Assembly (NCBI GenBank): GCA_950295325.1
Contig: OX485804.1
Coordinates: forward strand, 7,318,001 to 7,382,000
Direction of reading: 5' to 3'
Length of the DNA stretch: 64,000 nucleotides
DNA from: Polytrichum commune
Taxonomy: Eukaryota; Streptophyta; Polytrichopsida; Polytrichales; Polytrichaceae
Shown: piece by piece, positions 10,802 through 54,322 of the stretch
Position numbering within the stretch: position 1 is the stretch's first letter
How the letters are laid out: each line of letters opens with the position of its first letter
Translations under genes and position numbers: made by a program
The notes under the pieces: model-generated
What the model was told of the DNA's origin: nothing
Database searches by the model: none
What the model saw: only the letters and a program-made list of their open reading frames with translations

Positions 10802-11284
10802 TTACTTGTGGATGTAATGGATCCCAATTTTGGTATAGTTGCATTTGCCTTGAACGAAACCTTCATCCGTTGCCAAATATTCCTTGTCCCACTTACTCAT
10901 ATTACATTTTCTACAAATATCTTTTATTTGTCTCGATTCCCCATCGGAGTCCTCTTCCCCGTTTGTGTCCACTTCCCCATCGGAGTCCTCTTCCCCGTTT
11001 GTGTCCACTTCCCCATCGGAGTCCTCTTCCCCGTTTATGTCCACTTCCCCATCGGAGTCCTCTTCCCCATTTGTGTCCACTTCTCCATCGGAGTCTTCTT
11101 CCCCATTTGAGCCCACTTCCCCATCGGAGTCCTCTTCCCCGTTTGTGTCCACTTCCCCATCGGAGTCCTCTTCTCCATCCATGTTCTCTTCTCCATCTAA
11201 GTCCTCTTCCCTGTTTGAGTCCTCTCTTGATCCATAATTCCATTCCCAAACATCCTTTTCATTGTTGAGTTTTACATCCAGACA
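10802..11284 (-). CDS. Acidic-repeat exon, probable 3' exon of the TNL
   Basis: The exon has a branch-point-like TACTAAC, a pyrimidine-rich tract and the acceptor TGTACTAG just before 11284. It is open for 160 codons. It begins CLDVKLNNEKDVWEWNYGS, runs into six to seven copies of a 12-residue acidic unit (GEEDSDGEVDTN), and ends with a Cys-containing segment (KDICRKCNMSKWDKEYLA) and GIHYIHK. Its phase (0) matches the strong GAG/GTAAGT donor of the TNL LRR exon at 11954, 669 bases upstream in the transcript. It could instead be an exon of a separate gene. A possible donor (AAGTAAAT) lies at its end. Confidence 0.5.
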   Translation of the reverse strand, partial: CLDVKLNNEKDVWEWNYGSREDSNREEDLDGEENMDGEEDSDGEVDTNGEEDSDGEVGSNGEEDSDGEVDTNGEEDSDGEVDINGEEDSDGEVDTNGEEDSDGEVDTNGEEDSDGESRQIKDICRKCNMSKWDKEYLATDEGFVQGKCNYTKIGIHYIHK

Positions 11285-14200
11285 CTAGTACATAAAAACA
11301 ATTGCACAAATGATGTTAGTATTTGCATGCAAAAAAAATGAATTTGGCACTCAATGTCATTACCAAATAGAACATAAGACGTGGACCTTGTTCCAGTTTG
11401 GGTCCTTAGGACGTGGGGAGCTACATAAGTGGTCTAGATCTCAAATAGCAACAACCAATGAGTTGAAGGGGCAATGAGAAGCACATGCACTAGGAATAAG
11501 GCTTGTGATAGGGACGTATTAGGTTATGCATGCATTCATTGGACAATCATGACCATCAATGCAAAATTGGAGGGTGTCTTGAAGTCACTATCATTGGCTG
11601 TAGTGGTATGTTTGTAGCACTAAACACCAACGCTCCTTTACCTAGGAACGTTTATGTAAGAACTACACAAGTGGACTGCTCTTGGATAGCACTCCTTCGG
11701 AGGTTGTATTTGTTTTTACACAAAACACTTCTAGATTATTTCGGTTTCTTTTGTTATCATGTGTCCATTATCTAGCCAAATGTGCAGATATTAGAATGGA
11801 GGGTGTTATGCCGTCGCCGCCAGAAACGTGATCGTGCCACCTGGCATAATGCCCTCCGTACATCTTTCGTTCTTTCTTTCGTTCTCGTTCAGGTTCTGAC
11901 CCAGCTTCCACGTGAAACGATACAAAAACTGAAGGCGCATTTGTGTTACTTACCTCGTGTGCCCCGAATGAGCAACTCTCCCCTAAAGCATGGAAAGGCT
12001 TCGGCTCAACAAACTTCTGCAAAGAATCCTCCTCCCCAACTGTGAAGTCCAAATTGTGGCAATGCGCGATACACAGCCGTCTCAGTTTCCGAAACCGACC
12101 AGGATGTGGTAACTCACGGAGCTCACAACACCCATACAACCCGAGTGACATCAACTCGGACAATTGCTCCAGCCCATGAACCTCATGGATTGTGCTGGAG
12201 CAGCTCAGGTCCAAGAACGTCAAGAATTTCAGGTTCCCCAAGTCAAGTTGAAACCCCGCCGGAATCCAGTCGTACATCTCCTTCTCATCCACGATATCCA
12301 AGATTTTGAGGTTCCCAAGCTTCATGATATCTGTCAACAACTCCCGCCGCATCTCCTCCGTGAAATTGCGAACTGTGTCGGTTTCCCAGTGGAAGGCTAA
12401 TTCCGTCAACTTATGGTTATTGCGCAGGCCTTTGAAACCCTGGAAATTGCCGCAGGGGAGCCGCAACCGCTTCAGCTTCCGGCACAAACTTAGGTCGGGG
12501 TAGCAGTCGAGATCGGGGCACTCGTAGAACCACAAAGTTTCCAACCTTCGAGAGTGCATCACAAATGAAGCCTCCTTCAGGTTCGGGAGGTATTCTAGTT
12601 GCACCACTTGAAGCTCGGACAAGCATCCCCGATTCTTTGTGTAGCAGGGCTGGTTGTCGGTGAACAAGGAGTTGCATGTGCACACAATTTTCTGGAGTTC
12701 GTTGCACTCGATAACACGCAGAACGCGAAGCGAGCGCAAACCCTGGACGTCGAGCGTGAACAAATTCTGCACAGATTCGAGGCAAAGGAGTTTCACGGAT
12801 CCCCAATCCACTATGCTGTGGAGATCCTCGTTGAACGAAACGCCGAATAAACACACTCGCACGAGTTCTGAGGAGTCCTTGTTCGGCAAGTCGTAGAAAT
12901 ACTCGACGTCGTCTACTACTTCGCTGAAGTCTTCGTGCATTTCTTCGTCCAAGTCCAGGCACAACATGCACCGCTCCTTCGTTTTCCCGGCCCGAGTGAT
13001 CACGGACATCGCAAGCTCCAATAAATCTTCGGAGACCGAAATGTCTGAGTCATTCAGGAATGAGTGTTGCAGATCGTTCACCTAGACATAAATGATCCAG
13101 AACCAAAAATGAGATCACAGTGAGCTATTTTGTCAACCAGGAATAACCTTCCGGACGTTCATAAAAATTCATTATATTCCTAGATTTTGAAATGCTTGCA
13201 ATACATCAGTGGCTCCTTAATACATCTTCCTAAAATTGATATTTTAGCAAAATTTCTAAAGTCGCTGACACGTGCAGGTGATACAGATAATTACCATCCC
13301 CAAAGTATTGAAAAGCACACGTAACAAATATTTATGTACTTTTAATACTAGAAGCCCATGGATGATATCACTGAATTGGAATATGGATGCACCCAACCTT
13401 CTTCTCCACGTCGTGAATTGGTATACCATGCAACATGGCAAGGAACTCGTTTTTGAGCAGCCTGGAGTTATTATGCTCTTCCCACTCCAGCTCGGCGTGG
13501 AAATCCATGTGTGTATAACGCATTTCTTTGGCAAAAATTGCAAGGTCCAGAAATATGAGTTTTGAGGTATCGTCAAGAGCATCATATTCCTGCCCAACGG
13601 CGTTGTCGGCATGATCAACATACTCCTTCCAGTCCAGAATGCTTCCTTTGTCCTTGAGGAAGGATGCAAACGTGGTCAACATCCTTGGAATAAAATCTAC
13701 CTCATGCTCGACACAACATCTCCGAAGGCAATCTTCCACAACTTCTAACTCCTTTAAAGTAAGATGTTTGTCCACAATGACATCTCGAGCCTCACTCACT
13801 GTCACAAGGGATTTTTTTTTCGGAGCAGCACTGGACAGAAAAAGAAGTTGAGCTTCGTTAGGATCCAAATTGGGAAAAGGCTTGCAATACATTGGATCTT
13901 CTAGCACATTCTCCAGAAGATCGCAACGCCTGGATGTGACTAACACGTAACTCCTTGTCGGAAACTCGCAACTTACATACCATTTCGCTTCGTCCTGAGT
14001 GGTAACCGAAACATTATCCACGACCAGAAACACAGATTGCTTCATGTTATTCAATTGGTTTCTTAAATACTTCTTGCCCTGCAGTGCATCCACAAAATTC
14101 AACAAGTTACCCAACAATTGAATCCCGGGTAAGGTCTTCCTGAGATTTTTAACCGGGTCGAAGTCAGACCATACTTTGTTAATTAGTGGCAACCAACAGT

Positions 14201-16462
14201 GCAAAATATAGTTAGTTCATTGCCTCTTACATGAAGCTTATAATTGGCATAAACTTGTCTTTCATTGGATCATAAACAAGTACACAAACATCTCATTTGT
14301 CTCAATAAATAAATAAAACAAGTACACAAACAAGTTAGCAAACAAATCACAAAAGGAGAACGATATAAATAACGCAAGTTTATATCCCTTATTTATTACC
14401 TCATGTTCCGTCATAATTTCTGACATGCTCTTGGGTACACCAACCAATTGCTTTATTACGGCCATAAGCCTGGCTAATCGGCGTTTGGTGGCCGCAGCTT
14501 GCCCGTCAGCAAATTTACCCTCGCCACATTTCTCACTGTCCAGCCTCACACGACAAAACCGCCCGGGATATTTCTCTTGGTAAAAATTGCACATGGCTTC
14601 ACAGCATATGAGTGTTTTCCCCACTCCCGCCCTGCCAAATAAACCCAGTTGACGTCTTTGCACAGATTTTCCCTTGCGTTCCACGTCTTTCGTTTCAAAC
14701 ATCTCGAATATGCACTGCAAGTAACCACCACCAACGGACCAAGTAAAAGGTCATGAAACAAAAGAGCTGATTTATTGCTACTGCACCCAAAATTTGTCCA
14801 ACGCAATTAATATACACCTGGTGATTTAATCTATGAGACTTGATTTAAAAAACTTACACACACCTGACACAGCCGCTCGCAACCTTGAATGCCAGAAGTA
14901 TCAATTGGTAATGCGGGAGGCACAAGCTGCAAGATTACTTTCACCACTTCGTTCCGGTACTTTGTTTCATTCTTTCCATGTATATTGTTCAGGCCATTAG
15001 TTTTTAACAGCTGACCAATGGCCTCTTCATATTTAACCTTATCAAACCTCAGCCTTTTGGCATTTTTCCCAAGCTTTTCGACCAGCTTGTTCCAAAGATT
15101 GCCCAGGTTATCCTTATTGAGGTCATCTGGACGTATTTTGTAGAACACAGGAACAATCTTCAAGTTGGGGTTGTAGTTGGGGTTGGGTTTATTTAGCAGC
15201 CTCGGTTTCATAGCGTCCACGAATGTGATGAGCTCCATCATGGGCCACTTGGATGTTAGAAACCCCTCCGACAAAATGACCACCGCGACCTCACATGTTC
15301 GAGCGGCTTCAATGATCTGTTCCGGAAATTCCTCTCCAATTGGTAGGCTTTTCCGGCGCTGGTCAAAAAAGGGGAAGAAGCGCTCCGCTTTTAAGTCTGC
15401 ATACAGCTGATGCACGAAGGGCTTGTCTTCTCCGCTGTGAGACAGAAAGATGGTGTGCTTGGGCTCAAGCTTGGGTGCAGCCAGCCTGCACATACAGAGA
15501 GATAATGATCTTGGTCAATACGATAAAAACTCCTTTTTCAAAGTTTGTGTGCTATGAATTATGTCCACTGGTGGATGTGTGCGCAAGTTAAATTGGTTTA
15601 ACCCCTGAGAGGCCTAAGAGGACATTACTGGTGAAGTGTTTTCTAAGATGTGCTGTAAAGCAACAAATATGAAGGTCTTTTGAAAACAATACTACAAAAG
15701 AGAAGTTGAGATGCACCACCAAAGGATCACACATCCATACAAATAGTTTTAGGTTTTTATGATGAATTTAGAAGAGGATTGGTTTGAGCATTCATCACAG
15801 ATCTCTTTACTTAGAAGAGAAACTTGATACGATTGGCTGGAATAACAAACACCTAGAAGTTGGTGGAGAGTTGTAAGTGACAAAGTGTCTCTTGAGATGT
15901 GCGCACTTAGTGAGGCATAAAAATTAACCATGCACCCAGTTGCATGATCAAGTGTTTGGAGGCGATAGACGAATTCAATAACTATGACTAGAGAAAAAAT
16001 GGATTTAAAGCATTCATTTTTTTTAGCAAGTTCCATGGTACGTTGAAGCCAGAGACAAAAATGCCCTAGTAGTTCTCTTGGGGGTTAAGTTCGGGATTGG
16101 CTAAGATTGTAATAACATATTTTCACCAAGACAAGCTATTTCAACTGGAAGCATGTCAACAGGTGTTGAAAACCCTGAACATGTGTCCATAAAATGGCCC
16201 ATTTCAGACATGATTGCATTCAGTCCTGGAAACGATGTTATGCAGGGTAACAATCAAAGAATCACATACTAATGTGTGAGATAAGACCATTTTGTGTCTA
16301 GACATACCCTCCTTGCTCGGACTCCCACATTGTTGCTCTGTCATTGCCATCTTCCTCTACTACCAGCTCGCCATCCGCCATAGCTGCTCGGTCAATGCCA
16401 TCATCCTCTACTACCACCTCGCCAGCCGCCATAGCTGATGCGCTGCCACACTGGAGACTCAT
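10802..16462 (-). CDS. TIR-NB-LRR immune receptor (moss-type TNL), six-exon model
   Basis: This is a predicted intracellular immune receptor. Proposed exons are 16462-16308, 15485-14864, 14714-14400, 14173-13398, 13081-11954 and 11284-10802. Exon 1 is acidic, with a 17-residue repeat (VVVEDDGIDRAAMADGE, then VVEEDGNDRATM). Exon 2 holds the TIR domain (HTIFLSHSGEDKPF, then SKWPMMEL with the Glu at the NADase catalytic place). Exon 3 has the P-loop GRAGVGKT. Exon 4 has kinase-2 VFLVVDNV, RNBS-B YVLVTSRR, LDDTSKLIFLDLAIF, and IHDV in the MHD place; the GLPL motif is replaced by FIPRMLTTFASFL. Exon 5 carries the LRRs. Exon 6 is an acidic repeat tail. Exon 1 to 2 is phase-compatible (GTATGT donor, TGCAG acceptor), but an ATG at 15493 is an alternative start. 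Exon 3 to 4 does not keep frame with canonical sites. If the exon 5 donor is not used, translation stops at 11768. Confidence 0.85.
10935..11190 (-). repeat. 36-bp tandem repeat encoding a 12-aa acidic unit
   Basis: Units of 36 bp (plus strand: CCCATCGGAGTCCTCTTCCC, then CGTTTGTGTCCACTTC) repeat about seven times with only scattered substitutions. On the minus strand all units stay in one frame and encode DGEEDSDGEVDTN-like repeats. Degenerate units extend up to about 11220. Confidence 0.95.
11370..11545. repeat. Dispersed repeat shared with 36780-37000
   Basis: The block shares CCTTGTTC.AG, then AGCAACAACCAATGA, then GAAGCAAGGAG-like and AGGGTCTTAT/ACGT-like landmarks with DRC10 intron 11. 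In this gene it lies in the proposed last intron of the TNL. It has no coding frame. Confidence 0.5.
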
Positions 16463-24634: not shown

Positions 24635-27600
24635 ATGATAGAGGTTGAAGATATCGTGCAACCTGTGGTTGTGAGGGGCACCAAGCAACATGGATCCACT
24701 AAGGAAGTCAAATTTGTGGATGTTAATGAATATTTCACTCCTTGTGAGTATTCAACTCAAGCGGAGCGAGATTTTTCGAGCAATGTGTCACTTCATGTTG
24801 GAGAACCCCCAATCATTTCGTGCCACTTACTCCTCCACCTCATCGATGATGCGGTTGACATATTGAGGTAAGTTGTGGATATATTGGTAACATATCAAGT
24901 CGGATCAAGTTTTCCTTTAAGAGTTTGAAGCACTTTGCATAAGATCGCTTGTGCAATTTCCACATTAGTTGTAACTAGCTAATTTCCTACTTACGGAAAC
25001 TTTGGAATGGGTGCATTCTATATAAACTTGAGCTGACACACTACAAGCCCGATCGCACAAGCGAAAATTCTCTTTGTTCATGTTTGTTCCTATGGGAGTC
25101 ATCGTTTATATTTATCTTTATATATATGTCCAACTACACAAGACCTACAAGCAAATAGGTATCATAACGATACAAAGGATAAGTAGTTACGAGTTTAGTA
25201 TCTTATTATTATTACATGTGTGCATGATTCTCAAGGTATGTGAGATTACATGTTTTTAGATATATTTGGTGTTTGGTATATAATGAAGAATTGAGTCGAA
25301 TTGTTTGGCAGGTCATTGACATATATATCACAAGGGAACTTGAGCACTTTGACAATGATGAAGGACGAGCTACATCCTGCAAGTACTTATTATGCTTTGG
25401 ATAGCCTTCAATAGCCTTGGGCATCAATAATATGAACCTATAGATTGTCAACATAGAACAATCTCACCAACCGAAGGCGTGTCATTTGGGAGGCACTTCT
25501 AAACAATGGCATGCTTAAATAAAACCTTGAAGAAACATAGGACGGCCCTTCGTATCGCTTAGTTTAGTATCCTAAGCACGTGTACACAATTCGGTGTTGG
25601 AGAATTGATTGCTCATAGGAGTAATACGGTAATGTGTTAACTAATAGCATGCCCACACTTATTAATAAGGGCAACTAGCAAACGAATCCTTTTAGCAGAG
25701 TCCACTTTTAACTCCAGTTTGGCCAGTGATAGCCACTGGATGTAACTAGTGTTGGTAGGAACCGTTCATTAGTGGCCAACACCAATAAGTCTAGGTGGGC
25801 TATAAGTTAACAAAGCTTCAACTATGGGTCTCATCACTTAGCTTCCCGTGGGATGCCCTCAATCTGGGGTGTTAGTGTGCTACCTCTCTCTCTCAGAATT
25901 AAAAATAAATACAAATTGACACGTGTTGTACCTACATTGGTCAAGAACATGCACAATCCAACGTGTAAAATTGGTGTTTCATGGTGAATGAGAGATGTTT
26001 TCTCTCGTCAAAGAGTGTAGTACTATCATTAAGCACTAGTGTTTGATTTATTTTTTTGGGTTAAAAAATGCAGGACTTCTATGACATTTTACGGTGGCAT
26101 GCCGACCACCTCCATGCATGGCAAGCGGCTGATGCGGACGAATTCAAAAGATGTCGACGCGAGTTGATAAACTCCACCAAGGCTCTTTGCTTCTACTTCT
26201 TACAAGTAAACTTGACTTGCGGCCCCAAAAACTAACGACTTTGGTACTTAGAATCTCACGCGGTGGAGCTTTAGGTTATTTACTATGTTGCTTACCATAG
26301 CTCTCTAGCAGCTTGGGCAGAAAATAATGAATCTTAAAGGTGCCTAAATTTATGGGAAATTCATTTCGTTGAGTATCCAAAAAAGAAAGAAACAACATTC
26401 AAAGAGTGCCTAAAATCACAATAATGCAAGTGACATTCACCTGGTTAATCCTAGGCAGATAGATAGATAGAAACTCCAGTCCCTTTTGAGGGACTGGCGT
26501 GAATAAAGTGTCCGTTCATAATGCCAAAGACCCGATGCCCACAGGAGTTAATCCTAGGCACAATAGATAGAATTAGAAAAACCATCCATGAATTATAAAG
26601 ACGACTTGAATGAATGTCTTACTTGTTTTAGATTACTTTTTGAATATGCCCAGTTTCACGATATCATTTTATGGGCTACCTAACTTACTTGCGCGTTTCA
26701 GTTCATTATTAAGCAGAAAGGTGCCCAAGCTGCTGGAGAGCTACGGTAATTACTTGAACATGTTACTTTCCATTCTTAAAATGTTTGCAACTCCCAACAT
26801 TGCACAGAGCAAGGAGTTTGCACAAAATGAGTTGGAAGCCTTGCATTGCATATCCGAACCATCAATCGTCCTTTTGATCGAGGCGTTTCTAAAGGTAAAA
26901 CACCAACTTTCTTTTACTACTAGAGGATTTGCATCTACAAAATGCATTAATCATCAACATGGTTTATCTCAACGGTTATTGTTTTAATACATGGGACCCC
27001 GAATTAAAGTTGGGTAAATGCTGGAATCTGTAAGGGTTTTTCACTTTGAATGTGAATTTCAATTTCAATTTCAATCATTCATGACAGTGCTTGTGGACTT
27101 ATTCATAAGAAGTGTCCTTTGAAAACGTTACCACGGTGACATTAAAAAGCTCCCATATGACACTAAATACACTATTTAGTGTCGGTGATTTGTGGTTTTA
27201 CATCCTAAGACAGACCGAGCCCTTCTTACATGCCTATATGCTTATAACCATGAAATGAATTCCGGAAAGTAACAAGACTACATTATTTGTTCCAGCTTAG
27301 GAGAGTGGCTCTCAAACGGTTTTCAACCACGATAGAGGAACAAGAATTGATCGATGGGTATCACAAAGATGTCAACTTCCGGCACAAAACGGTATGCAAT
27401 TTGGGTTATTGTATGACTGACAATTGTAGATGTTGGACGAGTCTACGAGCATATGCATCCTGGACAATTGACATGTGTCACTAACTGCGTCACTAGAAAA
27501 ATTGTATATCTAACACAATGGTGGATTTGCATATTTCTTTCAATGATTCAGGTCGATTGTCCTAGGACTCGTATACGAGTGGTGGTAGTACTTAAATGAT

Positions 27601-30600
27601 TGGTGCAATATTAGTAGTATTAGCATCGACCATGTCATTGTGGAGTCGTGGTATCTTGATATACAATGAATGTTCGTGATTCTAGTGTTAACACCGCTCA
27701 ATGTTGAATGTTGATGCACATGTTGGAGATTTTGTCATTTTTTGGTAAAGGATTTATCTTTGCATTGCATCAATTTGTTTGCTAGTGTATTTGGAGATGC
27801 ATAGTGCTATGAATGTTTATTATTTTGTTGTTCTTTCATGAAAGACATTGTGTGCTTGGTTAAGAATATGTATACACAAATACAAGTATGTTTGTTGCGT
27901 TGTGCAACTAGAAAAAAAAATAAAGATCTTTTTGTTTGAGTTAGGTCTGACATAAATTGATCAAATTATCAACAATGTGGCCATACATTACATTATTTGA
28001 TGTGCTTAAATTGAATTTGGCCGAACACCAATTTATTTTGATAGTTGGGTGTTGAAAATGGCATGGAGAGCATTGATATTGTAGGTTAATAGCTGGTATG
28101 GTGTACTTGCGTCAAATGACCGATCAATGTACCAATTTTTTTATAATATGAAAAAAATATTAGTTTAAAAATATCTTGAAGTCTATCATTTCCAGCTTGT
28201 TCACCAATACCCACTGTTGGGTAATAGGTGTTCATGATGCACTATGATTCAATGGTAAGATTTAGGAGGACATCCTCCCCTTTATACAAGAACAGTGGAA
28301 GGAGTGTGGAGTAGTATCAACGATCCACGTGGGATATGTAAATTTGAGATGAAACCCATGTAGTTCTCTTGTAGGCATTATTTCATATCTTTTGGAATAC
28401 GACTTCAATTCACAAAATTATTGTCGGAGGTCGTATTTTGTTTGTTTACCTAAGTTTTCTTAGTTGAACACAACCACAAAGAAAATAAGTAAAACCTTTG
28501 CGCAATCAAGTTCCAAGAATTTGTTCTTGGCACATTATTTCTTCTTCAAACCTCCCACACCTCTTGAAAAGCTTGTTGAAATTTGTCATATTTTTTTCAT
28601 AACAAACTTCAGATCGCAAGATTCTTGTTGGAGGTGGGACGAAGTTTGATTTTCTAGGTACCCTTAGAAACCCAAAATAAGTTAATGTTCTATGCGGAAT
28701 TGATGTCCAAAAATCTGCTAAGGACCTAGATTAAGTTCTACATAAGTCTTGTAATTTCATGCTAACTCATATTCTTTGTGGGAACTCTGGATAAACTTGA
28801 GTACAATGTGAACCCCTTTTTCTAATTAACTTCCTAAAGTTAATTACCATCAAACATCCACATGATCTTGTGTTGAAAGGGGAAGGGGGGGTCTTTTCTC
28901 CATATTTTGGCAATTATGTTAAATATTTGAAAATAATCTCAACAAAATATTCTTATATTTTCATAGTGAAAATAGAAGATAATATGGCCTTTTGCACGGT
29001 CTCTTCTCCTTTATGCTATATATGGCTTTTTGAATATGACTTTGGGTTCCTCTTTGTCGTGGCTCTCAGAAATCCAACATCATAGTTTCTCAATGGCCCT
29101 TGGTCACATGTGGGAAACAAGCCTTGAATTAAATATTGTTTTGTACATGTATTCTAACCAAACTTAGCTAATGTTTATAAATTGTGGGTTTTTTAATTCC
29201 TCCTTACATGTCTTACTTCTATGCCTATCAAAGTCTAGAACATTATAAGATTTGAATCATTATCTTAGACACGTGGTTCTTGAAGATTTGTATTTATTTG
29301 TTTGTTGTTTTTATTTTTAGTCTTAAGCAACAAGTGAAGTTTTTTTTTGGGAAGCCGATCCAAAATCATGTTTTATCTTTGTTACTACAAGACAAGGGCA
29401 GTCTTAAATTACATGTGTTAAATGACAATAATCTCTTGGGATGTGCCTCCAAGACCGTCTAAGTGTCGTTTGGATCTAAACGACACAAATGGTTGTCTTA
29501 TAGGACATGCCCCAATTTACAAGTGTCGTTCGGACATTGATGTTTAGCCTCCCCCCCCCCCCCCAATCTCCATTGAGTAAAGTGTGCGGTAATTATCAAG
29601 CTCAAATGTAAACTTAGCCCACTATGATTTTGGAGACAAGGAAAAACGATGTATGTTGTTGATAGATTCATCATCAATTGCTCCTTCGAAAAATATCCCT
29701 CCTTGAAACAATTTCATTCTTTTGACGAAGATTTTCAATCGAGGAATTAAGTTGAAATTAAGGTTCAAAGACAGTTGAGTGTGTGAAGCATTCCAACTTA
29801 CCATTCTAAGTAAATCTAAAGGTTTGAGCTTATTTTTATTTTTTAACACATAATCACATTCTTTGCATCTTTCAAAATATTTTTATGTGTAAGTTACTTT
29901 TGACCATGGGACGCTATTTCATTATTTAAAACGTGCTTTTGAATCGTTTGTGAACCTTTGCAATCAAACTCTTTTACATCAACTTGTGCTATGTTGAGAT
30001 GTTAAATCATGCTTTCAATCATATGCATGCCATATGTAAGTGATTTTTGGCAACTTTTATCTAATGTAAAGAGCATGTGAGTGTTGAAAGTCTGTCAGCT
30101 TGAATTACCATAGATTTTGATAAAAAAAATACCCTCGATCATCAAGGGTTCATCTTCTAGAGTAATTTCATGAGAATCATTTAGGGTTTAACTATTAAAG
30201 TGATGGAGATGTGTAGGCCATGGAAGCAAATGCAACGGTTTCCGAAACGTTAGAGGAACAAAGGAATAAACGTATGGAAGAGATCGCTTGCTTTGAGGAA
30301 GAAGAACGCATCATTCTTCGTAAGACTTATCATTATGTCTTTAGAAGTAGCTATTTCATTTCAAGGTAGTGTGAATTTATGTCACCCCTAATTGTTGAGT
30401 TTTGGAGTGCGTAATCTTGTTTGAAGTCTAGTTTCTTGTTTTCTCATATGTTTATATCCATCTATTATGTTGTAAAGGACATACTAATCATGTAGAAAGA
30501 TCTTAATTGTTAACACCTACATTTAGTCCACACTATGGGATATTGCCTTTGTGAATTTGCAATATTCATGGTAGTCAAGACAACTTAGTCGATCCTCTCC

Positions 30601-33600
30601 TTATCTAAGGTAAGTGGACTTGATCACTCATCTTAAACATACACCTATGCTTGACTATAGTGTAGTTAGGTGTGGATTTAGTTTTAAATACAAAAAATGT
30701 TAACAAGAAATCAACCTACATTCTTAAATAAGTTGATATAGGCTCAATAATTCATTTAATTGAGGGACCTATATGATCGCTTGATGAGAAAGAGAATAGT
30801 CACACAACTTCATGGATGGCAATTTTGAAAGTGAGTTTCACATCTTCCATCTTGCAATATGAATTGAATGTTGACAATTGAGATATAAATACCTAAAAAT
30901 ACACTACATATGTTGAAGAAGGTGGTGGTATCAAGGTGACATCAACTTCCACTTCTGCTTCTCAATAGAAACGCACCATGACTGACTAGCTCACCCGAAC
31001 CCCTTGATATGAACGATTTTCAAATGACTCGTTGACTTAACGCATAGCATCATTCAATCTTCACATGGACTTTTGTCACCTAGGGAATATCTAATGAATC
31101 ATTCCCATATAATTCCTACAAGATGCTATTACACCTCAAGATTCAACAATGAGAATTGATATGCAAGGTATCTCTGGGATTTTTTTGTAAAGGAGAGAGG
31201 ACCTATAAGACTGATCAAAGGAATAGTATGTGAACCTTGCATTGTTGGCATGCTATAACACTAACCTTGTGTGGATCTTTCGCTACGGGATTTTGGTCTT
31301 GTTGATGTGAGAGTATGTGTTTTTACGAATGGTGAAGAGGTTGGTGAATCATCAAGGGATCAATCGGAACGTGAATGCAAACAACTTGAGGACGAGTTCG
31401 CCGTCCTTGAAGCTCAAGAGCTCGATACATTCAACATGGAGGTGAGTGGCCTCTCATGGTTTGTGAGGAGAACAAGAGTAATTTTTTCAAGAGACCAAGC
31501 ATATTAATCAAGGCGTGTGTTATTTGATGTTACATGAAATATACATAAGAATCTATGCATACAATACTTTTGAGTGTTTGTGGGAGGTGACCCTTCCACA
31601 TGAACAATGCCCATTCCTCACCATTCATTGTCTATACCAAAGGGTGAACTCTTTATCATCTTAACGTATGCTTGTCTAAGGGGTCTAATATGACCATATC
31701 CATGCACAAAACTTGTATACGAGTTACATATTTTCATTTTTAGTCAATCATGTCAACATTGACCCCATCTCAAATTCACTCATTCTTCTAGTGCCCTTTT
31801 CAAATAAGATGAATACCTTGATGATATTGGAGATTTCAGTTAAAACACATAGTTAGGTGTCCTTGGATGCAAATACGTACTTAGTATTTTGATCATTAGT
31901 GCCACACGTGTGATGTGAGTGGATTGCTATTTGTTTGTTAACATGAGATAATGTACAAAACAAAGCACAAAACCCAAAAGTATTGGAAATGTGATTTTTA
32001 GAGTCAATGAGAATTGTAGAAATTTTGTATTGAGTTGTATACTTAAACCCCCTTGGTTAAGGGTTAATCATGATTCATGTATGTATTATGAGTTTGTGAT
32101 TTAGCAACAATGTGATTGGGTGCAGTATTTGCCACTTGAGGAGGAAAATGAGATCCTAAGAGAAGAACTTACAAAAGAGCAAGTAAACTTTTCAACCTCT
32201 ATACATGCGTATTATACCCAAGTATTTAGTAAAATAACTACAATCCATGCAACTAAATTTTGGAGATGGTAAAATTTATTGTAGAGATTACTAGAATATT
32301 TTTTATACCTATTGAATGCTATGACTTAGAATGGGTCTACATTAGATCTCAAGCCTCCAAAATCAAGTGATCTTATCAGTCAAGAGTATTAAAATAAATG
32401 GACATTTGGAGTTTACATTAGAATCCAAGTCCCAACATATACAAATACCCAAGTGGTAATAATATGACATCATTTTCTCACCAATGGCATGATGCTCACA
32501 ACTCAACAAAAAAAGTAATACTCCCCTAGTGTGAGAATCAAAATTGGAACCAAAAGTAGGGTTTGTGAATTGACCTAGGGTGTATTCTATTGAACTTTGA
32601 TCTTTTGTACCAATTTGTGAGAATTGTTTGAGCATATTATCACAAATATTTTTTAATATCGGATATATGTATGTGAAATCAACTCTAAAGTAAAGATGTG
32701 GGTAGTTTGTTTACATTATCATTTTAGCATGTTATGAGAAGATTTATTGGTTGAATTTTTTGAAGTTTTCAAGTGTAAGCAATTAGTGAAATATTAATTG
32801 TTATTTCGTTGCATGGCAAAATGGATGAGGGACCTAGATATAGAATATTGGTGTGGAAGTGGAATACATAGACGCAAAATTTGAAGTTCGCATGCCTGTT
32901 CTAGATACAATTTACTTCTTACATTGATCTTGAATGTCATTTTTAAAGCATGTTTTTGTTTGGGGCGTTTCCTAAATTGCTAAATGTTGTTGACACTTGC
33001 AATGAACAACACCAATTGGCAACTAATCTTAATGACGTTCTTTGTCTAATAGATTACAAAACATTGTCCTCCTTCAAATCAAAACAAAAATCTTAATGGC
33101 ACTTCCACCTAGTTAGCCCTCCCAACATATAATAAGTTGCATGCGTAGTGTGTGTGTGTGTGGAGGGGGTGGGGGGAGAAGGGGGTTTGACACAATGTGG
33201 TGGGCAAGTGGCATTTGTTTCCTCCAAGAGTAAGTTTGCCAAGAGAATAATAATTTATTTGGTTTTCTGAAACATGGAGTACTTTTGGGCTCACACATCC
33301 AAAAGACACCCCTATGACATGAGGCAATATCACTTCATAAATATGTCCCATGTTTACATGAGACTAACATAGACAACACCTTCATTTAATTAACTTTCAT
33401 ATTTAGTAAACCTATATTTTGAGTGGTATGTGGTTTGGTGTGGCTCCAAGAATGGATACCAAAAAGACTTTATTCAAAAGAGATTGGATTGTATGCTCAA
33501 AAGAAATGTTAACTATTCTAAGCTCAATATTCAACATAATTGATGGGTGGGTGGGAGGACTTATGCAACCATATAATGAGCATATAAAATCAAGAAAACA

Positions 33601-36600
33601 ACATAGGTGCTTTTATTTGCACTGATGTGAATGAGATCATGTTGTACATGTTGACCATGTAGGCATATTTCCCACATTATGGAGGTGGGCTCCTTTAAAT
33701 AATAGTTTTAGGGGGGGGGGGGGGGGGGGAAGTCAGTTATGAGGTTTGGGGTGAATTAGGTGTGGGTGCTTGGTTGTTGTCGAGCTTTATTTTATCTAGG
33801 ACAAGGTATGTGAGCTATTTTATGGCTATTTGATGTATGTGTTCATGAGTTTTTGACTTCTCGAGGGGGTATTTTGAGTTCTTTTAGGGCTTCGAGTGAT
33901 AGTTTGTGTATGGGTCCTTGTACACATCTTGTGACAGTATTAAGAGGGTTAACATTCCGCTGCTATGTTGTAAGAAGATGATAGAAAATGAATATAAAAT
34001 GCTCATTGGAAATGTTCCACTCACTAGAAAATTCTCCTCCTTTTTTTCCATCTTCCTTTCATGAGCACAAGAATCTTCATAATTCATATTATTCATCTTT
34101 TGATAATGGATAATACAATTGTATGAGTTTTGCAAAATTTTGTATGAAAAAAGTAATCTCCATTTGGATTTGATGACCATCTTGTGGTACTCGTGTGTTT
34201 CATATCTTAGGAGAAGTAATATACTAAAAAAGAAAAAAAAAAGGAACCATTCAATCTCCACCCACCTTAGGTCTATGCCCAAGGGTGAAATACCATCTCC
34301 CATTAATTTTAAACCCGATTGTTGTCACATATCTCACTTTGAAATTGGACCTTAATGTAAGCCCACCCTAAACAGTACTCTAAGCCAACAAACGTACACA
34401 CTGACTCGGATCATAAGATGAGCTCATTAAAATTAGCATGACACCAACTCACATAACATTATTCAACAACAATAGAGATTTACATTATGTTTTGAGTGGG
34501 TCAATGAAGCTTGATAGTTGACTTTTGCTTAGCATTATAAGTTGAAATAATTTCAAATTGAATCTATAATATGTGATAGGCCACTCGGAAATAAGAGAGC
34601 ATAATTCTTTGTAAACTCATGGTCTCGTGGAACTATAGGACATTGTTGAATAATGTTACAAACCCACACATCCAAAACCTAGTGTAGATTTCCAAATTTT
34701 TAACGTTAGCCCATACTACATACAAAAAAATGATACGGTGGTCACTTTTCAATGTAAGTCGTATGTACGTAATCACATATGAATAAGCGTGGAGTTAAGA
34801 TATGTGGGTGTTACTTGGATACTTTTCTTAATCATACCCCTATATTTGGTTTGTTTACGGTTTGGTGAGGATGAAAAAACAAACACTGTAAAGAGAGATG
34901 TTCAAACGAGATCGGATTACGTCTTGAATTCTCGTTAACTGCTCCCCACTCAATAACGAGCACGATTGGGAAAACTTATGTACCCAATTAATAAATCAAC
35001 AAACAGTCACTCCCGATAACTGGAATCTAATAGGAAAATTTATGATTGTCAATCCAATTTTTGTTGATGCTTCATCAAAAATATGCTAATGCAACACGAG
35101 TTTCATCATGTAAATATAATCGGTAAAAGTTGGAGAACGTGAAAAACCGAATAACACCCCCACACACCTACCTTGATGCAGTTCAAGGACCGGGAGAAGG
35201 AGCTTCAACAACGTGGAAAGAACGGGCAAAGCCGAGAGGAGGTGGCCAACCTCATGTGGAGTTTTGACTACGATGCAAACGAGAAAACCGATGAACTCAA
35301 GGAATTGATCGTGAGTGCTTTCATATTTTGAGATTTCAAACTCCAATTTGTGTAATACAATCAAACTCCAAGTAATTCACGTGAGCCTAGAATGGACACC
35401 TCTTGTAATCGTGGGCAAAGTCTTCTACAATATAGTACATCTATTCATTTCAAATTGTAAGTCTAGGATAGTCGTACATCAATCGTTTTTACAAAGACTT
35501 ATATCCATTTTTAATCTTGTATACCTTACTTAGTAGGTACCCAACTTTCTCAAAATGCATATTTGATCTTTCATAATGAATTCTACAATACATGTGGACG
35601 ATAATCGTGGGTGGTTTTGGGTGTTACGGATCGGAGAATTTCATTGTGACATGACAACGTTAACTTAACATGTTATTCTTAGCATGTAACATCGTTTAGG
35701 GAATAATCCTCGTATTGCAAGTTTTCATGATACTTCTTGAAGTATAGCACTCGCGTAGAGAATTGTCCGGGGTTTAAAAGAAGATCCAACAATAAACATT
35801 GGTTAAACACCACAACATTATAATGTTTGAAGAGGTTGTATTGAGATAATAGTAGTAGAAAACTATGTCAAAAAGAATCGCAGCCAAAATCGGTATATTA
35901 CACCGTTACACGCCCCCAAATCTCTAAAATTTCAGTCGCTAAACCAAAAAAAACAAATATATGATTATTTAGCAAGTGCATATTAGACTCGTAAGAAGAA
36001 CTGCAACTGATTTCGGCTGCGATTTTTTGGGACGTAGTTTTCTACTAGTGTTAAAAATGGGAATGAATAGTGGGTTCTTAAGAGTGTCGCAATGTGAATT
36101 TGGATTGATCAACAAATGGTTGGGTGCGTGTATTGGTTGTTGCAGAAGCAAAATGCTGAAGTGGATGGATACTTGAAAAAGATGGAATTTCATTTCAAAG
36201 AAAAAGCACGATTGGTAAGCATACTACGAGGCCCAAAATGTCTTCGTTCTCTATGGTATTGGCTCATGTTACTAAATGCAAGCCTCTCAATGTGTGAGGT
36301 TTTTGAGTTTTTTGAGTTTGTGTTTAACTAATAGTGCGACACGTGCTCTTTTGTAGGCGGCGATTGTCGAAGAAGCAGAAAGGATCCGTGTTGAAAAAAT
36401 TTGTGTATGGACCTTGCCTTTGATAAAAGTTGGAATTACAAGCAAAATTGTTGTCTTAACCTATTTCACTAGAAACCTATCTCTACTTACTTCTACCATT
36501 ACTTCCTCAACATGAAAGACGCTCAATAAACCTATGCTTCAATTGTGGACCCTTTTTTTAAAACATCCCAAAAATATCAAGGGCTGCAAATTTTTGTAGA

Positions 36601-37704
36601 GATGCCACGTCATTGCATAACATTATTAAGCAACTACATGATGGTCTCTTTTCAAAGAAAGAGATTGCAATTAAAAGAACTATGATCATTTACAAGTGCT
36701 TGTTGAAAATGTCACAATACACAATACGAGTGCTCCTCGTTAATGAGGAATCTTGGAATTAAAGAGGAACTATGTTCGTGTGATATTTGGTCCCACATAA
36801 CGCAACCAATGAGCCTAGTGTTTCTAGTCTCCAGAACAAACCAATGCACGGGCCTTGTTCTAGTCGGGATCATTAATATGAGGAGTCCTATATGTATTTG
36901 GAAATTAGAAGCAACAACCAATGAAAGCAAGGAGCACTAAGTATATAGAATCTAGGGAAAGATTAGGAGAATTGGAATAGGGTCTTATTTGGTTACGTGT
37001 ACGTTCTTTGAAGAACCGTGACCACCGGAACTAAATTGCCATCTTCCAATGTAAGATATTATGTCAAAGTATGGCATGGACATGTACCTCATAGGAATGT
37101 TCTCTTATGTTATGGCTATCATACGTGTTTGTAGGCCAAGAAGAGGGCGAGATGGTTACCACATTATGCAGCATGTCGTATTCAACGATATTGGAGGCGA
37201 TTTAAGAAGAATAAAAATGGTGGGGCTGATGTAAGCAATTCTTCCTCATATGCCCAATTTCCAAAAGAGACCACCTCCGACACGAGGCAATAGCACTTGT
37301 CCCATAGCCTTGCTATGTAAACATGCTTTGGGTTTGAATAGCGTCCTATCTCTCTCTTCTTTCTCATATATCGGCTTTATGATACATTACCAGTTCATGA
37401 AGCCCTTCATCTCATTTTATGTTACTTGAAGTGTTCATTTTATTTTATATTTTTCAAGACACCCTTGAAGCACAAGGATTGTATTTTTTGTTTTAATTAT
37501 GAAATACTTTGTTGTGAAGCGTTTTTTGTGTTCCTCTAAGAAATCATCAACCACCCATAAATTTTTTGTAAGCAAGAACAATCCCATAGCTAACATAGTG
37601 GCGTCAAATAATACACATTGGTTGGTGTTGTGGTGGTGGAAATGCAGGAGAAAGGTAAGGGCAAGAAAGGAGGGAACAAAGGCAAGAAAGGTGGGAAGAA
37701 ATAA
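24635..37704 (+). CDS. DRC10: Dynein regulatory complex subunit 10 (IQCD), 13 exons
   Basis: This is a predicted subunit of the nexin-dynein regulatory complex of motile axonemes. Exons: 24635-24867, 25312-25378, 26074-26205, 26721-26894, 27296-27391, 30217-30319, 31338-31441, 32126-32182, 35182-35310, 36146-36214, 36357-36404, 37135-37230, 37648-37704. They join in frame to about 453 aa, close to human IQCD. Recognisable parts are an N-terminal helix (LLLHLIDDAVDILR), helical segments (LLESYGNYLNMLLSILKMF), acidic coiled coils (ETLEEQRNKRMEEI, LPLEEENEILREELTKEQ), the IQ motif AACRIQRYWRRFKKNK, and a Lys/Gly tail (EKGKGKKGGNKGKKGGKK) just like animal IQCD. Intron 2 needs a GC donor (CCT/GCAAGT). 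Exon 4 needs an AAG acceptor. The start of exon 7 is uncertain. The paralogue DRC9/IQCG is the main alternative; the N-terminal half favours DRC10. Confidence 0.8.
27159..27183. repeat. Perfect palindrome GACACTAAATA-cac-TATTTAGTGTC
   Basis: A 25-bp inverted repeat with 11-bp perfect arms lies in DRC10 intron 4. The arm matches the subterminal motif of the CACTA-type MITEs elsewhere in the window. It may be a solo footprint or a tiny residual element. Confidence 0.7.
29551..29564 (+). repeat. C14 homopolymer in DRC10 intron 5
   Basis: A run of 14 C lies between exons 5 and 6 of DRC10. Confidence 0.9.
31560..32020. repeat. Dispersed repeat in DRC10 intron 7
   Basis: This block aligns loosely with 21170-21480 over several hundred bases and has no open frame of its own. 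It lies between exons 7 and 8. Confidence 0.45.
33409..34290 (+). repeat. Dispersed ~330-bp repeat (family A), interrupted copy in DRC10 intron 8
   Basis: The first half (33409-33600) shows the family landmarks GAGTGGTATGTGGTT, GGCTCCAAGAATGGATACCA, GAGATTGGAT and CAACATAATTG. The second half resumes near 34056 (GAGCACAAGAATCTTC) and ends with TTTGGATTTGATGACCATCT, GTGTGTTTCATATC and CCATTCAA. About 450 bases between them, including the G19 run at 33711-33729, are not part of other copies. Confidence 0.6.
33711..33729 (+). repeat. G19 homopolymer
   Basis: This is the longest homopolymer in the window, in DRC10 intron 8. Length is likely to vary between individuals and sequencing reads. Confidence 0.9.
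34850..35165. repeat. Dispersed repeat (family B) abutting DRC10 exon 9
   Basis: This shares AATAACGAGCACGATTGGG, TACCCAATTAATAAATCA, ACTTCC.AT.AC-type and GAACGTGAAAAACC.AATAAC landmarks with 49720-50040 and, in its right half, with 1-180. It ends about 15 bases before exon 9, so it supplies most of the sequence upstream of that acceptor. Its left part also resembles the left part of family A. Confidence 0.6.
36780..37060. repeat. Dispersed repeat shared with 11370-11545
   Basis: The copy in DRC10 intron 11 shares GGCCTTGTTCTAGT, AGCAACAACCAATGA and AGGGTCTTAT-like landmarks with the copy in the proposed last intron of the TNL. Confidence 0.5.
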
Positions 37705-53460: not shown

Positions 53461-54081
53461 CTATGGAATTACATAGGACAGGTTCGGGTAGAATTGGCAA
53501 TTCTTGCACATGTGAAATAAAATGCTAGTGAGAGTGGCACCCAAATGCTTCTTCATGCGAAAACAAGCCCATTGATGGGCTCTTTGCAAAATGTAGCTAT
53601 GCGAAAGAGTCACGCGATTATTCAAACCTATTTTCCCAAACTTCGCATACTCCAATTTCATGTCATTCATGACATCCGTGGAAATATTGTGGTGCACACA
53701 CTCAAAATGCTCCTCCCCATAATCTGTCATGCAATACCCAACCATGCCTAAGAAGGTATGCATGCCCTCATCCCTCAACCTCTTGCATGACACAACATGA
53801 CCTATGGGAGAATTCTCATCTTAACCCAAGCAAACCTTGAATTTTTTGTTCAAGATCGGGAGACTACTTAAATTGCACTAGATGAGCGTTTTAAAGTGTT
53901 TGTGTGTCAATCCACCACCGTGCTCCACGGAGCACAAACATGTCGTACAATCTTCCTCAAAGAACTTCCTCAAACTAACAAGATGTATAATGTTAAAATT
54001 AGTTCCACGTGTGGCAATTATAACGGACGCCTCATAGTACTTAAGAGAAGAATGCACGAGGGCTCTCGTTCTAGGAGCCAT
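53461..54081 (-). pseudogene. Decayed HUH endonuclease (Replitron-like Rep) gene
   Basis: One minus-strand frame runs about 200 codons from 54081 with only two internal stops (one TAG, one TAA near 53825-53880). It holds CLCSVEHGGGLTHKHFKTLI, where HKH sits at the two-histidine motif of HUH Rep proteins. It then has MHTFLGMVGYCMTDYGEEHF, with YCMT at the YxxK tyrosine motif, and ends NNRVTLSHSYILQRAHQWAC and YPNLSYVIP. I recall this organisation from multi-copy HUH-type proteins in green-lineage genomes assigned to Replitron transposons; that assignment is from memory. The Lys of YxxK is replaced by Thr and the frame is broken, so it is inactive. Confidence 0.55.
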
Positions 54082-54322
54082 GACATAAGCTCACCAAACG
54101 TGATAGAAACACAACACAATTGACCACAAATGGACGAGTAAAGAATACCAAAACTAACTACCAGAGATGCAGAGGTTGAAAATGTTGATGGCGAAGCCAT
54201 TGACCTACATGGCTCCCCACAACCACCGCCAGTTTGCTGCCACTTCCAACTCTAGTTGCCGCAAGGCTACCATAGGTAATTGTGCCACCTAGCACACGCG
54301 TCACCCAGTCTTGGCATACAAT

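Follow-up and report, generated by a model that had tools for sequence, protein, structure and literature searches.

A probable DRC10 (IQCD) gene and two diverged paralogs in a moss-like land plant

In Tetrahymena, DRC9 is joined to its partner DRC10 as a coiled coil that sits on DRC1/2, reaches the distal lobe and contacts DRC3 and DRC7. Calmodulins are predicted on both proteins, and the pair has been proposed as a hub to dyneins e and g (accessible part of PMC10504270). Moss sperm swim, and the 9+2 axoneme was first observed in moss sperm flagella (accessible part of PMC5424408). The accessible part of PMC8128824 names no DRC gene. Our literature search found nothing on DRC10 in bryophytes or on the nexin-dynein regulatory complex in Marchantia; most subscription papers lay outside it, so a bryophyte DRC10 may already be described.

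We analyzed a 64,000-nucleotide stretch of DNA (hereafter the window) and found a gene that we identify with high confidence as DRC10 (animal name IQCD), a coiled-coil subunit of the nexin-dynein regulatory complex (N-DRC), which sets the timing of flagellar beating; it would act in the sperm flagella of a moss-like land plant. The best comparison is the DRC10 chain 8glv_Ey of the 8glv axoneme, which we take to be that of Chlamydomonas. This chain and the window protein have an N-terminal helix, a central charged stretch and a Lys-rich tail in the same order, and both carry a C-terminal AA..IQ.YWR.FKK site. They differ in length (356 residues in 8glv_Ey, 425 in the window protein), the window protein having a tail rich in Gly and 57 more residues ahead of the region that matched. 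The animal DRC10/IQCD chain 8j07_10 (449 residues, presumably the human protein) is similar in length to the window protein but only weakly alike in sequence. It was absent from the matches of the window protein up to E 10, and a profile of the window gene and its two paralogs matched it at E 0.97 (profile positions 178-427).

The gene comprises 13 exons between positions 24635 and 37704 of the window; paralogs and 8glv DRC10 are cited where they bear on an exon.

Exon 1, 24635..24867, + strand: start codon and N-terminal region (residues 1-78); open frame, GT donor; ends in phase 2 as paralog exon 1 does
Exon 2, 25312..25378, + strand: GC donor; aligns without gaps to 'LISYVTQDVL' of 8glv DRC10
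Exon 3, 26074..26205, + strand: phases equal to those of paralog exon 3
Exon 4, 26808..26894, + strand: 87 bases and equal phase in all three genes
Exon 5, 27296..27391, + strand: 'RRVALKRFSTTIEEQ' aligns to 'RQFAQKRLTTTVEED' of 8glv DRC10; 96 bases in all three genes
Exon 6, 30217..30319, + strand: acidic stretch; 103 bases in all three genes
Exon 7, 31338..31441, + strand: acidic stretch; acceptor matches the paralogs; 104 bases and phase 1 in all three genes
Exon 8, 32126..32182, + strand: acidic stretch; 57 bases in all three genes
Exon 9, 35182..35310, + strand: well conserved (identity with the paralogs at 23/43 and 25/43 residues); 129 bases in all three genes
Exon 10, 36146..36214, + strand: 69 bases in all three genes
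Exon 11, 36357..36404, + strand: 48 bases in all three genes
Exon 12, 37135..37230, + strand: IQ-like site AACRIQRYWRRF
Exon 13, 37648..37704, + strand: Lys/Gly tail and stop; a 21-base repeat, two copies, at 37660-37701

Joined, the exons give a single open frame of 1278 bases including the stop codon, with no internal stops. AG closes all 12 introns and GT opens 11; intron 2 has a GC donor in the context T/GCAAGT. For junction 12, which is not matched in the paralogs, the evidence comes solely from the splice signals and the uninterrupted frame. A 14-exon draft had contained a 44-base exon (26702-26745), with the acceptor of the following exon displaced. The 44-base exon was dropped as false because the paralogs begin the next exon in phase 0, which is incompatible with it. 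Once it was removed, the match to 8glv DRC10 formed a single stretch and its score increased from 29.3 to 41.4 bits.

The preliminary description had proposed 13 small exons over this interval, none longer than 80 codons, encoding an N-terminal region, an acidic coiled coil, an IQ motif and a Lys/Gly tail. All of this was recovered in that order: the longest exon has 233 bases, the IQ-like site is encoded at 37168, and the acidic stretch (residues 181-376) contains 52 D/E, 30 K/R and a single Pro, the coiled coil being judged from composition and homology. The protein of 453 residues that it had expected is replaced by one of 425. The locus is a real and ordinary gene, a predicted 13-exon plant gene.

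Several other features were observed in the window. A frame on the - strand at 2512-2904 encodes the NDUFB7 subunit of mitochondrial complex I (Pfam NDUF_B7, 3.8e-27). An apparent TIR-type resistance gene occupies 11771-15514 on the - strand, with a Pfam TIR domain in the frame at 14834-15514 and weak LRR matches in that at 11771-13081; the frame between them (13371-14216) had no Pfam match. At 10937-11222 lies a tandem repeat with a 36-base unit (7.9 copies, 88% matches) whose frames are open on both strands, one reading being an acidic Asp/Gly/Glu repeat. A - strand fragment at 53464-53820 matches the Replitron HUH endonuclease (Pfam PF21859, 2.6e-08) and may be a decayed rolling-circle transposon. 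It is adjoined by a TC repeat, and by eye the upstream piece at 53881-54090 might belong with it. Rfam at gathering cut-offs had no match anywhere in the window.

A protein search of the plant's own genome (407.8 million bases in 64 contigs) with the 14-exon draft returned 15 matches, of which 11 fall within the window gene and four on contig C4. The C4 region, 45,000 bases long, holds two tandem DRC10-type genes.

Paralog A, C4:26583397-26597207: 12 exons found
Paralog B, C4:26602405-26616045: 12 exons found

Their proteins are 38% (A) and 42% (B) identical to the window protein. Intron phases are common to the three genes at all 11 comparable junctions, and exons 4-11 are equal in length in all eight cases. 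The exon borders of A and B were placed by hand from weak tblastn matches and further searches, with the window phases known beforehand. A DNA comparison of A with B, which is independent of the window, gave 17 blocks; 11 of these account for 11 of the 12 exons of the paralogs and six lie elsewhere, and the twelfth exon is visible at the protein level in tblastx. The agreement in phases and exon lengths is more than chance. Exon 2 of A and B keeps the window phases but is 54 bases (18 residues) longer and has a GT donor. A search for Lys/Gly-rich frames in A and B found no counterpart of exon 13.

We compared the rates of substitution among the three genes. Against A and B, respectively, the window gene has pN of 0.42 and 0.38, dN of 0.62 and 0.53, and pS of 0.90 and 0.86, values of pS at which dS is not computable. 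A against B gave dN 0.21 and dS 0.88 (ratio 0.24). In all three genes the pattern is consistent with selection on the protein sequence; in the case of the window gene we infer this, because synonymous change is saturated.

To place the protein, phmmer was run against a library of solved structures comprising 177,635 distinct sequences. The window protein matched 8glv DRC10 at E 9.8e-10 (41.4 bits) in one colinear stretch of about 340 residues (66-412 on 9-346), and the only other match up to E 10 was an unrelated chain at E 1.6. Searching with the three-gene profile brought no improvement over the window protein by itself (7.5e-06 vs 9.8e-10). In the order expected of DRC10, the N-terminal helix, long coiled coil and C-terminal IQ-like site span the whole length. 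The IQ-like site scores 12.6 bits in the window protein, 16.9 in paralog A and 15.3 in 8glv DRC10, against a Pfam cut-off of 20.3, a cut-off that does not define the DRC10 family because 8glv DRC10 also falls below it. By sequence, the window gene is homologous to DRC10 rather than DRC9.

That the gene might instead be DRC9 (IQCG), the sister subunit, deserves weighing, as the two subunits are distantly related and similar in layout: 8glv DRC10 as a query finds 8glv DRC9 at E 0.0056. The library includes at least two DRC9 chains (8glv_En and 8j07_9), yet none matched the window protein up to E 10, and its best match is to DRC10. Local alignments were also scored against 500 block shuffles (block length ten), which preserve local composition. 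The window protein reached z 12.9 with 8glv DRC10 (residues 9-346 of 356; no shuffle attained the score) and z 2.8 with 8glv DRC9, somewhat above its shuffles (8 of 500 reached it), the DRC9 sequence being incomplete here (pieces 34-80 and 115-386 of 406, joined). Paralogs A and B gave z 8.6 and 8.4 with DRC10 and 0.9 and 1.8 with DRC9. Every DRC-named match was DRC10, whether the query was the three-gene profile (3 of 6 matches), the window protein (1 of 2), B (2 of 2) or A (1 of 14). We therefore give the DRC9 reading very little credence.

Composition alone can make long charged helices match, and the protein could in principle be an unrelated coiled coil with an IQ-like end. Paralog A illustrates the concern: 13 of its 14 matches in the structure library are to an unrelated transporter (best E 0.092), and 8glv DRC10 appears at E 1.0 (11.5 bits). 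For none of the three proteins, however, did a shuffle attain the score obtained with DRC10 (0/500 each), and the colinear match of the window protein takes in the N-terminal helix and tail, which makes a resemblance by composition exceedingly improbable. Somewhat less remote, though still quite unlikely, is that the window gene is a diverged paralog whose role has changed, the usual DRC10 function being carried out by a copy on C4. In its favour, the genome contains three DRC10-type genes, the sole mildly unusual point of this locus. Against it, of the three copies the window gene resembles 8glv DRC10 most closely, both in bits (41.4, compared with 12.4 for B and 11.5 for A) and in z. Paralog B alone matched 9fqr DRC10 at E 0.019 and 8glv DRC10 at E 0.57, and the 18-residue addition in exon 2 of A and B is missing from both the window protein and 8glv DRC10. 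We retain DRC10 as the identity of the window gene, which adds a further member to a known family.

We next profiled the genome for genes of a motile axoneme and found them. DHC_N1 (dynein heavy chain) matched at two loci, and Radial_spoke matched four exons on C1 and also gave a weak match on C5. GAS matched three exons on C5 above its cut-off; below the cut-off it also matches in 4 of 14 control genomes. SAM_LFY had four matches. One of these loci supplied a 72-residue LEAFY stretch that was most similar to 4bhk (3.1e-31), which we take to be LEAFY of the moss Physcomitrella, followed by 9fwy and 9g19 (both 1.8e-28), 2vy1 (1.7e-23; presumably Arabidopsis LEAFY) and 8s8q (6.7e-07). Because of the DHC_N1, Radial_spoke and GAS matches and a LEAFY closest to 4bhk, the best reading is a moss-like plant with probably motile sperm. 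The preliminary description had likewise supposed an organism with swimming sperm, which these matches support as an axoneme-bearing plant, and had named the gene DRC10, with DRC9 as the comparison to make; the E values and z scores above bear this out. It did not foresee the two diverged paralogs on C4.

Other subunits were sought in the genome. NYD-SP28 and NYD-SP28_assoc, presumably DRC1/DRC2, had no match at E 0.001. At E up to 10, NYD-SP28 gave nine weak matches, none over the cut-off, and no control genome matched either. Two of these sub-threshold matches (E 0.06 and 0.9) lie 3 kb apart on one strand at C4:27683265-27686275, a possible DRC1 or DRC2 gene. A genome search with residues 115-386 of 8glv DRC9 returned nothing up to E 10, an uninformative result because the control query, 8glv DRC10, found none of the three such genes known there. 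The DNA pattern for IQxWWRG occurs at four sites in three places, compared with one in the reversed control, and yielded no DRC9 candidate. Two of the sites fall in one multi-IQ frame (C1:62789024-62789124) that by appearance we take to encode an abnormal-spindle (ASPM) type protein; on visual inspection, the frames around the other two (57 and 100 residues) do not resemble DRC9.

By homology, and from the literature on other organisms, the window protein is predicted to form a long coiled coil with DRC9 in the N-DRC linker and to bind calmodulin through its IQ-like end. The pair would then relay regulatory signals to the inner-arm dyneins of sperm flagella. Expression of the gene in antheridia is a fair guess. 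A bolder proposal is that DRC10 multiplied in this lineage and that one diverged copy replaces DRC9, in which case the sperm linker would consist of two DRC10-type chains; we consider this highly unlikely.

The accessible part of PMC2239267 describes the surveyed flowering plants (Arabidopsis, Populus and rice) as lacking dynein motors, and DRC10-type genes therefore mark lineages that still swim. Many small exons and large introns make such a gene easily overlooked. As a DRC10, the locus provides a gene model of an axonemal subunit that evolves fast, from a plant outside the seed plants, and the set of three genes opens to test whether plant sperm employ more than one DRC10.
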